NCBI GenBank assembly: GCA_021794095.1
Contig: JAJYRN010000002.1
Location: forward strand, 1-64,000
Direction of reading: 5' to 3'
Source of the DNA: Acidobacteriota bacterium
GTDB lineage: Bacteria; Acidobacteriota; Holophagae; Holophagales; Holophagaceae
DNA length: 64,000 bases
Both the position numbers and the translations under genes were made by a program. Every line of letters starts with the position of its first letter. Within the stretch, counting starts at the first letter, position 1. Below are positions 9,111 through 13,093 of this stretch, piece after piece. The notes beneath the pieces were generated by a model that made no database searches, was not told the origin of the DNA, and was given only the letters and a program-made list of their open reading frames with translations.

Positions 9111-10538
9111 ATGAACCCTGCGCGGGCGCTCCTGGTGGATGACGATCCCACCATTCTGGACGTAGTGGGGACGCTGCTGTCCCGGCACGGGCATGAGGTT
9201 GTGGGCACGGGGTCAGGCCTGCGGGGGGCCCAGTTCCTCCGCAGCGAACATTTCGACCTGGCTGTGGTGGATCTCATGCTGCCGGACCTGAGCGGCCTCG
9301 AGTTGGCGCGCCAGGCGGTCGGGAAGCCGGACACGGTGGTGGTGGTGCTCTCGGGCTCCACTTCGGTGGAGACGGCCCTCCAGGCCATGAAGATGGGCAT
9401 CTACGACTACGTGCCCAAGCCCTTCCGGGCGGAGGAACTGGAACACACCCTGCTCCGCGCGATCGAGAAGTCCCGCCTGAACCAGGAGAACAAGCGGTTG
9501 CGGGAACAGATCCAGGGGCAGGCGCCGGGGCCGCAGATGGTCGGCCGGTCCGCGGCCTGGCAGAACCTCCAGGCCCTGCTGCGGCGGGTGGCACCCTCCC
9601 CTTCGACGGTGCTCATCACCGGGCCCTCGGGCACGGGCAAAGAACTCGCCGCCAAGGCCATCCACCAGTGGAGCCCCCGGGCCCAGGGCCCCTTCGTGCC
9701 CATCCATTGCGGCGCCATCCCCGAGACCTTGCTGGAGGACGAGCTCTTCGGCCACGTACGCGGCGCCTACACGGATGCCCGCACGGACCGGCCCGGGCGC
9801 TTCCAGCAGGCGGAGGGCGGCACCCTGTTTCTGGATGAGATCGGCACCATGCCCCTCAGCCTCCAGGTGAAGCTGCTCCGGGTCATCCAGGAGCGGGAAT
9901 TCACGCCGCTCGGATCCGCGCGCACGGTCAAGGCCGATTTCCGGCTGGTGGCGGCCGCGAACGAGGATCTCGGCCGACTGGTGGCCCAGAAGCGGTTCCG
10001 CGAGGATCTCTACTACCGGCTGAACGTGATTCCCATCCAGCTGCATCCGCTCAAGGAACATCCGGATGACATCCCGGTGCTGGTGGCCCATTTCCTCCGG
10101 AAGTTCGCACGGGAGCTGGCGCTCCCGCTGAAGCAGGTGGAACCTGCTGCCCTCCAGGCCATGGAGACCTATGGCTGGCCGGGCAACGTGCGCGAGCTGG
10201 AGAATGCGGTCGAGCGGGCCATGGCCCTGGGCTCCGATCCCGAGCGCCTGTTGCTCCAGGATCTGCCCGCCCCCGTGGCCGGTGTGGTCCCGTCGGTGGC
10301 CTTTCCGAGCCTCCCCCAGCACCGGGATCTCGTGCGGTTCCTCACGGATCTCGAGCGCCACCTGATCCTGGAAGCGCTCCAGGCCACGGGTTGGAACAAG
10401 AGCGAAACCGCGCGCCGCCTGGGCCTGCGCCGGACGACCCTGCTCCACCGGCTGCACGCCCTGGCCATTCCGCTCGATCCCCTCGACGAAACCGGCCGTC
10501 CCCATGCCTCCGCCCTTCTCGCCGGGGAGACTCCATGA
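9111..10538 (+). CDS. NtrC-family sigma-54-dependent response regulator
   Basis: A 475-aa three-domain regulator. The receiver (about 1-120) has LVDDDP and phospho-acceptor Asp54 in VVDLMLPD. The AAA+ domain has Walker A GPSGTGKE near 171, the sigma-54 loop as GAYTDA at 218-223, Walker [11 protein letters not shown] and the arginine-finger region. The C-terminal Fis-type helix-turn-helix contains [18 protein letters not shown]. It should drive sigma-54 promoters when phosphorylated. No partner histidine kinase is adjacent, so the input is unknown. The stop overlaps the next gene by 4 nt. Confidence 0.93.
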
Positions 10539-11194
10539 AGCGCCTGCTCGCGGGCCTGCTCGCGGCCTGCCTCCCGCTGGGGGCCTGGTCGCCCCACATG
10601 CATGAAGTCCAGACAGCCAAGGCGCTGCGCCTCATCCCCTGGCGCATGGCGGCCTTCCTCCGGGCCCACCCCGCGGCGCTAATGGAAGGGGCCCGGGGGG
10701 TGGCCAACGACGAGCCGCCCACGCCCGACCAGGTGGAGGCGGAGTACCGGACCGTCCTGCGCATGAGCGGGGAGCGGGCGCGTCCCGAGGAGATCGCCCG
10801 GGAGCTGGGCGTACTGGCCCATCAGGTGCAATTGCTTCTGGACCCCTCTGCCGTCCAGGGCCTGAGCCCGCTCCGGGAGGATTTCGAAGCCTACGCCGAC
10901 CAGTGGATCCCGCACCTGGTGGTGACCCAGGAACCCTTCTGGGCGGCCGAGGGGCGCCCGGACCTCGATCTGGCCCTCCGGCGCTTCCAGGCCGTGAAAC
11001 TGGCCCGCCATCAAGGGCTCCTGGACCATTTCGATCCGGCCACGGGCCGGCGCCTCGGTTCCTGGGACGACCGCTCCGTGCCCTTCGCCCAGCTCCAGCT
11101 TTCCTTCTCCAACGCCGTCTATGCCACCGCCAACCTTTGGATCCTCGCCTGGAGGCAGGCAGGGAACCAGTGGGAGCTTCCCCATGCACCCTGA
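10535..11194 (+). CDS. secreted zinc-dependent phospholipase C / S1-P1 nuclease-like protein
   Basis: A 219-aa protein with a signal peptide ([17 protein letters not shown]) after which the mature chain would begin W-S-P-H. A mature N-terminal Trp plus nearby His is typical of the zinc phospholipase C / S1-P1 nuclease fold, where the N-terminal Trp is a zinc ligand. Other candidate ligands are His in ELGVLAHQ and ARHQGLLDHFD. The C-terminal NAVYATANLWILAWRQAG resembles the closing helix of that family and the end of the broken gene at 21064-21566. Substrate unknown. It overlaps the upstream sigma-54 activator by ATGA, so it is probably co-transcribed with it. Confidence 0.6.
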   Translation: MKRLLAGLLAACLPLGAWSPHMHEVQTAKALRLIPWRMAAFLRAHPAALMEGARGVANDEPPTPDQVEAEYRTVLRMSGERARPEEIARELGVLAHQVQLLLDPSAVQGLSPLREDFEAYADQWIPHLVVTQEPFWAAEGRPDLDLALRRFQAVKLARHQGLLDHFDPATGRRLGSWDDRSVPFAQLQLSFSNAVYATANLWILAWRQAGNQWELPHAP

Positions 11195-11284: not shown

Positions 11285-13093
11285 ATGGGCACCTACACTC
11301 GCCTCGGGTCGTACCTGCTGGCCTCGGAGCTCGCCGGAGATCCCCTGGGCGCCATTCATCGGGCCGTGGTGACCGCTGGCAACGGCTTCGACCGCCATGT
11401 GCTGGTGCGGGCCTTCAGCGAGGAACTGTTCCAGGCCGGCATCGGCACCCGGATCGCCGATGCCTCGCGGGTGGTCCCGCTGCTGGGGGGCGCGCGGCTC
11501 TTCGGCCAGGGCTACCGCGTGGAAGGCGGGAAGACACCGCATGTGGCCTGGGATTACGTCCCCGGGCGGAGCCTCGCCCAGCTCATCGAAAAGGCCCGCC
11601 ATGAGCAGATTCCCTTCGGCGTGGATCATGCCCTGACCGTGATCCAGGGCGTGGCCCAGGGTGTGGTCCAGATGCATGCCAAAGGCGTGAACCATGGCCT
11701 CCTCAGCCCCCACAGTGTGTGGGTGAGCTTCGAAGGGGCCACTCAGATCGTGGACGCTCCTTTTTCCGCGCTGGTCAAGGGCGTGCTGTCGAAGGCTCCG
11801 GGCGCCCGGCAGAAACTGGCCCCCTACCTTCAGGGCCCTGAGACCAATGCCGTGCAGCAGGATCTCTTTGCGCTGGGGGCCGTCCTCTACGAATTGCTGA
11901 CCTTCGAGCAGGTGCCGGTGGGGGGCGATCTCCAGGGTGCCCTGGACCGGGCCACGCTGAAGGCGGCGCAGGAGGAGGCTCCCCTGCCGGCGGAAATCCG
12001 GGCCTTCCTTGGCCGATTGATGCTGGGGCGCCAGCCTTTCACCACCATGGATGCATTCAATGCAGAACTCGAGCGGGTTCTCTACGACGGCGAGTACAGC
12101 CCCACGACGTTCAACATGGCGTTCTTTATGCACACCCTCTTCCGGGAAGAGAACGACCGCGATACCACGGCCATGAAGGCCGAGCAGGGCGACAACTACC
12201 TCGCCTACACGCCAGCGGGAGAAACCCTCCGGAGCGGCGCGACCCGGGTTCAGCACATTGATGGCCACGCCGAGGAACAGGCCAGCCAGAAGAACAAGAC
12301 CCTGCTCATCGCAGGCGGGGTGGCCGCCGTCGTGATCCTGGGGCTGGGTTACCTCTTCATGAACCGGCAGAAAGGGGTCCAGAAACAACTGGCGGATCTG
12401 CAGCTTCTCCAGGTCCAGATCCAGCAGCAGCAGGCCGACCTGAACGCCAAGGCCCAGGCGGAAGCCCAGAAGGCCACCGACATCCAGAAACAGCTTTCGG
12501 AAACCAAGTCCGCCGACGAGAAGGCCAAATTACAGAAGCAGCTGGCGGAAGCCCAACAGCGGAAGGCTGATATCGAGCAGCAGCAGGAAGCCGCCAAGCA
12601 GCACCAGCAGCAGCTGGCCGAGCAGCAGAAGGCGGCCGAGGCTCGTGCGGCGGCCGTGCCCCAGGTTGCTCCACCCCCGCCGCCTGCGCCCAAACCCGAA
12701 GCGCCCAAACCGGCCCCCATGCAGCCCGCGGCCAGCCCTGTGCCCGAGGCCGTGCCTGCCCCCCAGCCCGTTGCTCCCCAGCCCATCGCCCAAGCCCAGG
12801 TGGTGGAGACGCCGCCCCAGGTGGTGCGCCAGGTGGCACCGATCTTCCCCATCAGGGCCATGCAGATGCGCTGGGAACTCAACCAGGATCACAATGTCTT
12901 CCTGCGGGTCTACGTGGGCGAGCAGGGCCAGCCTCTGAAAGTCATGGTGAAGCAGGGCATCTCGGGCCCCTACGGGTTCGATGAAGCCGCCATTGACGCG
13001 GCCAACAAATCCACTTTCGCGCCCGCCACCCGCGACGGGAAGCCCATCCGCGCCTGGATTGAGATCCACTACCGCTTCCAGCGACAGCGGTAG
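11285..13093 (+). CDS. pseudokinase-TonB C-terminal domain fusion, single-pass membrane protein
   Basis: A 602-aa protein. Residues about 1-265 have the Ser/Thr protein kinase fold (LGSYLLASEL start, DLFALGAVLYELLT helix F) but the catalytic residues are gone: HRDLKPxN reads HGLLSPHSV, DFG reads DAP, and no VAIK-type lysine is evident. One membrane span lies at about 340-360, followed by a Gln/Ala/Lys-rich coiled coil to about 455, a Pro/Ala-rich stretch, and a TonB C-terminal domain from about 518 (FPIRAMQMRWEL to the end). The kinase-like part should be cytoplasmic and the TonB domain periplasmic, as in PASTA-kinase topology. It may sense or scaffold rather than phosphorylate. It stands alone, with no ExbBD nearby. 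Confidence 0.85.
   Translation: MGTYTRLGSYLLASELAGDPLGAIHRAVVTAGNGFDRHVLVRAFSEELFQAGIGTRIADASRVVPLLGGARLFGQGYRVEGGKTPHVAWDYVPGRSLAQLIEKARHEQIPFGVDHALTVIQGVAQGVVQMHAKGVNHGLLSPHSVWVSFEGATQIVDAPFSALVKGVLSKAPGARQKLAPYLQGPETNAVQQDLFALGAVLYELLTFEQVPVGGDLQGALDRATLKAAQEEAPLPAEIRAFLGRLMLGRQPFTTMDAFNAELERVLYDGEYSPTTFNMAFFMHTLFREENDRDTTAMKAEQGDNYLAYTPAGETLRSGATRVQHIDGHAEEQASQKNKTLLIAGGVAAVVILGLGYLFMNRQKGVQKQLADLQLLQVQIQQQQADLNAKAQAEAQKATDIQKQLSETKSADEKAKLQKQLAEAQQRKADIEQQQEAAKQHQQQLAEQQKAAEARAAAVPQVAPPPPPAPKPEAPKPAPMQPAASPVPEAVPAPQPVAPQPIAQAQVVETPPQVVRQVAPIFPIRAMQMRWELNQDHNVFLRVYVGEQGQPLKVMVKQGISGPYGFDEAAIDAANKSTFAPATRDGKPIRAWIEIHYRFQRQR

Follow-up and report, generated by a model that had tools for sequence, protein, structure and literature searches.

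Locus and protein architecture

The window, meaning the whole 64,000-nucleotide stretch of Acidobacteriota DNA analysed here, contains an intact open reading frame that runs from an ATG start to a stop codon and encodes a protein of 602 aa, with exactly the boundaries and frame assigned by the first-pass annotation (Table 1). From its N-terminus the protein consists of a kinase fold, one transmembrane (TM) helix and a coiled-coil/Pro-rich stalk that leads to a TonB C-terminal domain. A full-length model built on 39 sequences has a mean pLDDT of 81.1, with block means of 81-97 at residues 1-300 and 89-97 at residues 511-600, and low confidence in the linker (317-346) and most of the Pro-rich stretch (457-504). 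Within the stalk the model gives long helices and then the Pro-rich stretch, in agreement with the coiled-coil/Pro-rich stalk proposed earlier. A scan for sigma-70 promoters and terminators returns nothing above chance expectation. Among the NCBIfam models matched by the protein, only TIGR01352 (TonB family protein) passes, so annotation pipelines would probably call it a TonB protein, a name that may mislead.

Table 1. Features of the pseudokinase-TonB gene and its upstream neighbour (positions in the window; residue numbers in brackets)
Feature	Position	Strand	Basis
Whole gene, pseudokinase-TM-stalk-TonB_C protein, 602 aa	11285..13093	+	ORF list, Pfam
Predicted protein-kinase fold whose catalytic motifs are degenerate, ending in the signature helix (5-290)	11297..12154	+	Model, VIA-align, Foldseek
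Arg42 at the VAIK Lys position	11408..11410	+	Alignment counts
HGLLSPHS (137-144) at the HRDxKxxN position; catalytic Asp, Lys and Asn absent	11693..11716	+	Alignments
DAP (157-159) at the DFG position	11753..11761	+	Alignments
Family signature YDGEYSPTTFNMAFFMHTLFREEN (267-290), helix past the C-lobe	12083..12154	+	Alignment, profile
Single predicted TM helix (about 338-359)	12296..12361	+	Hydropathy
Stalk, probably periplasmic: long helices to about 455, Pro-rich to about 510	12362..12814	+	Model secondary structure, sequence
TonB C-terminal domain (519-598)	12839..13078	+	Pfam, genome-wide match, fold
221-aa gene, conserved, product apparently secreted, no known family	10529..11194	+	Directly upstream of the pseudokinase gene

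Kinase fold and loss of catalytic residues

The Pfam Pkinase model matches residues 86-209 with an E-value of 3.5e-6 but only 27 bits against a curated cut-off of 31.7, and the kinase assignment therefore rests on the fold model rather than on Pfam alone. Searched with the full model, VIA-align gives a Z-score of 22.4 over 259 residues (6-288) to MAP2K6 and of 21.1 to PknB (1mru; 22% identity), Foldseek places PknB at the top (E 4.9e-11), and both programs return kinases only among the matches listed. A bilobal protein-kinase fold over residues 6-288 is thus confidently predicted. Structure prediction had been proposed by the first-pass annotation as a check on both of its domains; the kinase and TonB folds are each modelled with confidence, and the YELLT helix that it took as a mark of the retained kinase fold lies at residues 202-206.

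The residues of an active Hanks-type Ser/Thr kinase, namely the VAIK Lys, the HRD Asp with its Lys and Asn, and the DFG motif, are not found in the window protein. The VAIK region reads VLVR, with Arg42 in place of the Lys, which bears out the earlier remark that no VAIK lysine is evident, and the replacements of HRD by HGL and of DFG by DAP appear in the alignments just as the first reading had them. Two sets of homologues are used to follow these positions. The near set consists of 48 loci from a genome-wide peptide scan using Holophagaceae peptides, and the distant set consists of 40 strong matches resembling long frames, the weaker matches there including ordinary kinases. The equivalents of the catalytic Asp, Lys168 and Asn171 are gone in all 49 near sequences (the window protein and its 48 close homologues) and in all 40 distant homologues, two of which have Asn at the catalytic Asp position. 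The VAIK-site Lys is kept in 1/49 near and 4/40 distant sequences, and the DFG Asp in 49/49 and 6/40, respectively. Fourteen other kinases encoded in the genome serve as a control, and 12 of them carry HRDxKxxN...DFG by a strict pattern. Alignment counts reveal no alternative set of catalytic residues conserved across the family.

Judged by these residues, the domain is a pseudokinase that is unable to phosphorylate by the canonical mechanism, and the alignments indicate that the catalytic residues were lost by descent, family-wide and not as a one-off. In GLW pseudokinases, as a review of bacterial pseudokinases describes them, GLW replaces HRD and LLLL/W replaces the VAIK region; compared by this published motif only, the window protein has HGL and VLVR at these places.

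TonB domain, membrane topology and motor

The C-terminal domain scores 44.5 bits against the Pfam TonB_C model (E 2.2e-11; cut-off 24.6). The domain is also folded alone, because Foldseek and VIA-align searches with the full model gave only kinases among the matches listed. In isolation it reaches a pLDDT of 94.3, and the top 12 Foldseek matches all belong to TonB C-terminal domains or to FusB, a homologue of TonB, with E-values of 0.001 or better against the TonB C-terminal domains 9dc4, 6i97, 1u07, 8rd6, 2gsk and 6fip; TolA ranks below TonB. The assignment made in the first pass is confirmed by these matches, and a domain unrelated to TonB is excluded.

By hydropathy, a TM segment follows the signature helix in 86 of 89 family sequences, and the remaining three are truncated at contig ends. 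From hydropathy and precedent we infer that the kinase domain is cytosolic and TonB_C periplasmic. An SxxxH motif in the TM helix is characteristic of ExbBD-driven TonB energy transducers. The TM helix of the family has no His in 86/86 sequences and SxxxH in 0/86, a weak test of ExbB coupling, since SxxxH is also missing from the TonB that is linked to exbB in this genome. That TonB (L004; G000:C26:85843-86073, +) lies beside exbB-exbD-exbD and its motif-free TM helix is itself a prediction, and a TolA-like protein of the genome (L006) does have SxxxH. The same genome also holds an open frame with two consecutive C-terminal TonB_C domains (L002/L003; G000:C24:321206-321721, -); this frame also encodes TM stretches and a HELAH motif like that of zinc peptidases.

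A phmmer search finds no ExbB/ExbD-like ORF near the pseudokinase-TonB gene among the 4028 ORFs of 88 loci. Elsewhere the genome has four MotA/ExbB and three ExbD matches, and the exbB-exbD-exbD set adjoins its other tonB at G000:C26:85843-87812. The first-pass suggestion that the pseudokinase stands in the place of ExbBD is left unsupported by these results. Genetic linkage to exbB/exbD is not obligatory for ExbBD-driven TonB transducers, and a motor could act on the protein in trans. Nor does the presence of a cytosolic domain rule a motor out, because GltG of Myxococcus is described as having a cytosolic FHA domain and yet interacting with a TolQR-type motor.

Family signature, distribution and selection

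Just past the C-lobe, the family carries a signature with the consensus (S/N)P(T/S)TFNLAFFMHxLFRxEIE, which is recognisable in the 40 distant proteins. Within it the run YSPTTFNMAFFMHTLFREEN, 20 consecutive residues (271-290), is unchanged in 16 diverse near rows, and it includes an invariant Thr275 adjoining Ser/Thr274. A profile of 42 positions (A6), derived from 33 of the 40 distant loci and five near sequences, matches 115 of 396 Acidobacteriota genomes, distributed over 61 of 210 genera and 28 families; these figures describe a distribution and are not an independent test, because the counted genome sample supplied much of the profile. Only four genomes have two copies, and the frame around the match is open for 563 aa or more in 115 of the 119 cases. 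The survey of the phylum suggested by the first-pass annotation thus yields a phylum-wide family. At an E-value of 1e-3, 39 of 41 sequences (the window protein and the 40 distant members) have a Pfam match to TonB_C and 36 have one to Pkinase; the presence of TonB_C is checked by Pfam in these 41 and by alignment in the near set, and the 115 genomes are counted by signature.

Two near loci bear labels of other phyla (L048, 'Bacillota'; L050, 'Deltaproteobacteria'), and these are taken as mislabelled bins because their neighbouring genes match the Holophagaceae order. A tblastn search of plasmids with a distant member as the query gives 61 records, all of which cover less than 80% of the query; among the matches listed (15 of 61), 29-43% of the query is covered, in the kinase part. 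One distant locus has tandem pseudokinase-TonB genes (L133:1543-3639 and L133:3648-5603) behind an mltG gene, and the second of the pair exceeds the Pfam Pkinase cut-off.

Against three relatives, dN/dS is 0.024, 0.107 and 0.115 for the pseudokinase with its signature, and 0.140, 0.109 and 0.235 for TonB_C. Purifying selection together with conservation in relatives therefore excludes chance and decay. The spread over much of Acidobacteriota, usually with one gene per genome, suggests a structural or signalling role in the envelope, not kinase activity.

Gene neighbourhood

The gene order in the near set is comEC-like(-), a sigma-54 regulator, a 221-aa apparently secreted protein, the pseudokinase gene and rnhA(-), and the sigma-54 regulator is absent from several of the more distant loci of the set. 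At all 47 near loci whose sequence extends upstream of the pseudokinase gene, the next gene on that side is the 221-aa one. Its product has an N-terminal hydrophobic stretch and an invariant W-x-P-x-x-H-E-like start. The window member matches no Pfam family at an E-value of 1, and searches across the family yield, apart from a chance-like Pfam match in one of 23 members, a single PDB profile match, to a collagenase at E 0.3. A zinc phospholipase-like fold was suspected from the sequence, and nothing in the Pfam and PDB profile searches supported it. The 221-aa protein is the best candidate partner of the pseudokinase-TonB protein in this lineage.

Neighbours vary between lineages. Among the 40 distant loci, 15 have a YceG/MltG gene adjoining the pseudokinase gene; this neighbour is convergent in one of them and lies upstream in the same orientation in the other 14. 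RuvX is found nearby in 18 of the 40, and a Pfam scan of representatives confirms YceG in 4/4 and RuvX in 1/1. Neither mltG nor RuvX is near the gene at the six near loci tested. Because mltG is adjacent in fewer than half of the distant loci and in 0/6 near loci, the link may reflect shared chromosome order only.

Several further arrangements are seen in the distant set. In four loci of one family and the same class (L110, L111, L113 and L116), the gene lies, by eye, directly before apparent ATP synthase subunit genes. Another member (L141:3427-5678) has two possible partners in signalling encoded upstream, a TPR protein and an FHA-GAF-guanylate-cyclase protein, and another TonB_2/TonB_C protein is encoded upstream of a third (L132:4681-5733).

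Proposed role and alternatives

Starting from the sequence, the catalytic-residue loss, the predicted folds, the conservation and the gene order, we propose with a probability of roughly 55% that this conserved single-pass inner-membrane pseudokinase of Acidobacteriota is a trans-envelope scaffold, with a cytosolic docking head and a TonB_C domain directed to an outer-membrane or peptidoglycan partner. The kinase fold with its appended SPTTFN helix would be the site at which a cytosolic partner or signal docks, the dead kinase probably binding its partner as EssB/YukC and MviN do. One TM helix and a stalk of about 150 residues would carry the TonB-type domain across the periplasm, where it may contact the outer membrane or peptidoglycan, as has been proposed for the TonB_C domains of GltG and GltJ; a peptidoglycan target is as open as an outer-membrane receptor. 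Such a protein would work like GltG (FHA-TM-stalk-TonB_C), with the pseudokinase replacing the FHA domain. The retention of the DFG Asp in every near sequence counts against the scaffold. The core of the first-pass reading, a kinase-dead domain fused across a TM helix to TonB_C on its stalk, is right, and a scaffold or signal coupler is the most likely role.

Alternatively, the protein could be a TonB variant driven in trans by the ExbB/ExbD or TolQ/R of the genome, which energises outer-membrane receptors and uses the pseudokinase as a regulatory head. Its TonB_C fold is closer to TonB itself than to TolA, and the genome encodes both ExbB/ExbD and five matches to TonB-dependent receptor barrels. 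This reading is nevertheless unlikely, given that no exbB/exbD-like ORF occurs around the gene in the 88 loci and that the genome already has a tonB beside exbB-exbD-exbD, to which the His-free TM helix adds little weight. Somewhat more doubtful is a recruitment site of the MviN type, in which active kinases phosphorylate the dead kinase or its linker, an FHA protein binds and cell-wall growth is tuned. The genome has at least 14 other kinases, the signature offers the invariant Thr275 beside Ser/Thr274, an FHA-containing protein is encoded beside one distant member (L141), and MviN, as described, is a precedent; in the model, however, the invariant signature residues may merely cap a helix, and FHA genes, judged by eye, are not consistent neighbours.

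A non-canonical enzyme on the kinase fold, for example an AMPylase, is very improbable. The DFG Asp retained throughout the near sequences and the conserved HG motif would fit such an enzyme, and SelO, according to a table in the pseudokinase review, has Hgvmntdn at the place of the HRD motif. The SelO-type Lys, Asn and DxG metal site are nevertheless not retained in the window protein, which has Arg42, Ser144 and DAP instead, and no shared active site is visible in the family because only 6 of 40 distant members keep the DFG Asp. That the gene is an ordinary kinase decaying without function might be thought from the absence of every canonical catalytic residue, but this explanation has next to no probability: it is ruled out by dN/dS values of 0.02-0.12 in the pseudokinase and by the conservation of the gene, with its 20 consecutive invariant residues in diverse rows and its retention in most near relatives.

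A more specific form of the scaffold proposal, which we consider a long shot, is an Acidobacteriota trans-envelope counterpart of the Myxococcus focal-adhesion apparatus. In this machine the pseudokinase-TonB protein would couple a cytosolic partner to MltG-processed peptidoglycan and the outer membrane, the dead kinase serving as a cytosolic clutch in place of FHA. The comparison with Myxococcus makes no claim of gliding in Acidobacteriota.

Novelty and significance

Proteins that join a signalling domain, a TM helix and TonB_C are already known, as are membrane pseudokinases; their combination as a phylum-wide family appears new relative to the literature searched. Searches of open-licence papers found no published pseudokinase-TonB protein. 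A 2025 review of bacterial pseudokinases lists seven families, and a term search of its main text returns neither TonB nor Acidobacteria. A 2005 survey of kinase architectures, by its own account of its methods, set aside sequences lacking the catalytic Asp, so such a family would have been hidden from it. Bacterial pseudokinases are little studied, and the present family is a clear, mostly single-copy case of a dead kinase fold under strong selection and physically tied to the periplasm. It makes directly testable the role of a dead kinase at the membrane, and the question of whether TonB_C proteins with signalling heads occur in phyla beyond Myxococcota.

Comparison with known systems

The TonB proteins of ExbBD systems share the family and fold of the C-terminal domain and the Pro-rich stalk, and differ in that the present protein has a large N-terminal pseudokinase and its gene is not beside exbBD. 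EssB/YukC of type VIIb secretion, as described, resembles it in having a cytosolic pseudokinase, a TM helix, a stalk and an outer domain and in acting as a non-catalytic scaffold, but is a Firmicutes secretion component without TonB_C; the likeness drawn here is one of architecture. MviN (ActPs3) of Mycobacterium tuberculosis is likewise described as a membrane pseudokinase that controls the cell wall without catalysis; ActPs3 pseudokinases are marked by an activation-loop deletion and ActPs3 sequence constraints.

The remaining comparisons are with the gliding machinery of Myxococcus. AgmT, an MltG homologue, is reported to be needed to connect the gliding complexes to peptidoglycan, and the mltG link in Acidobacteriota is suggestive for this reason. 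No motility genes are reported near agmT, so the Myxococcus gene order does not repeat the Acidobacteriota adjacency of mltG. GltJ (AgmX) is described as modular and TolA/TonB-like, and has TonB_C motifs and one TM helix.

GltG (PglI, MXAN_4867) of the Agl-Glt gliding machine is described as a protein of 640 aa with FHA at residues 26-90 and TonB_C at residues 570-637. It is tied to the AglRQS motor, whereas no ExbB/ExbD-like ORF lies near the pseudokinase gene, and the window protein has a kinase fold and no FHA match in Pfam. The cytosolic head of GltJ is also of another kind than the kinase fold. GltG and the pseudokinase-TonB protein are alike, as far as the published descriptions go, in their similar size, in placing a signalling domain at the N-terminus and TonB_C at the C-terminus, and in having one TM helix and a periplasmic stalk between the two, and GltG is the closest working analogue and the nearest architecture found in print.
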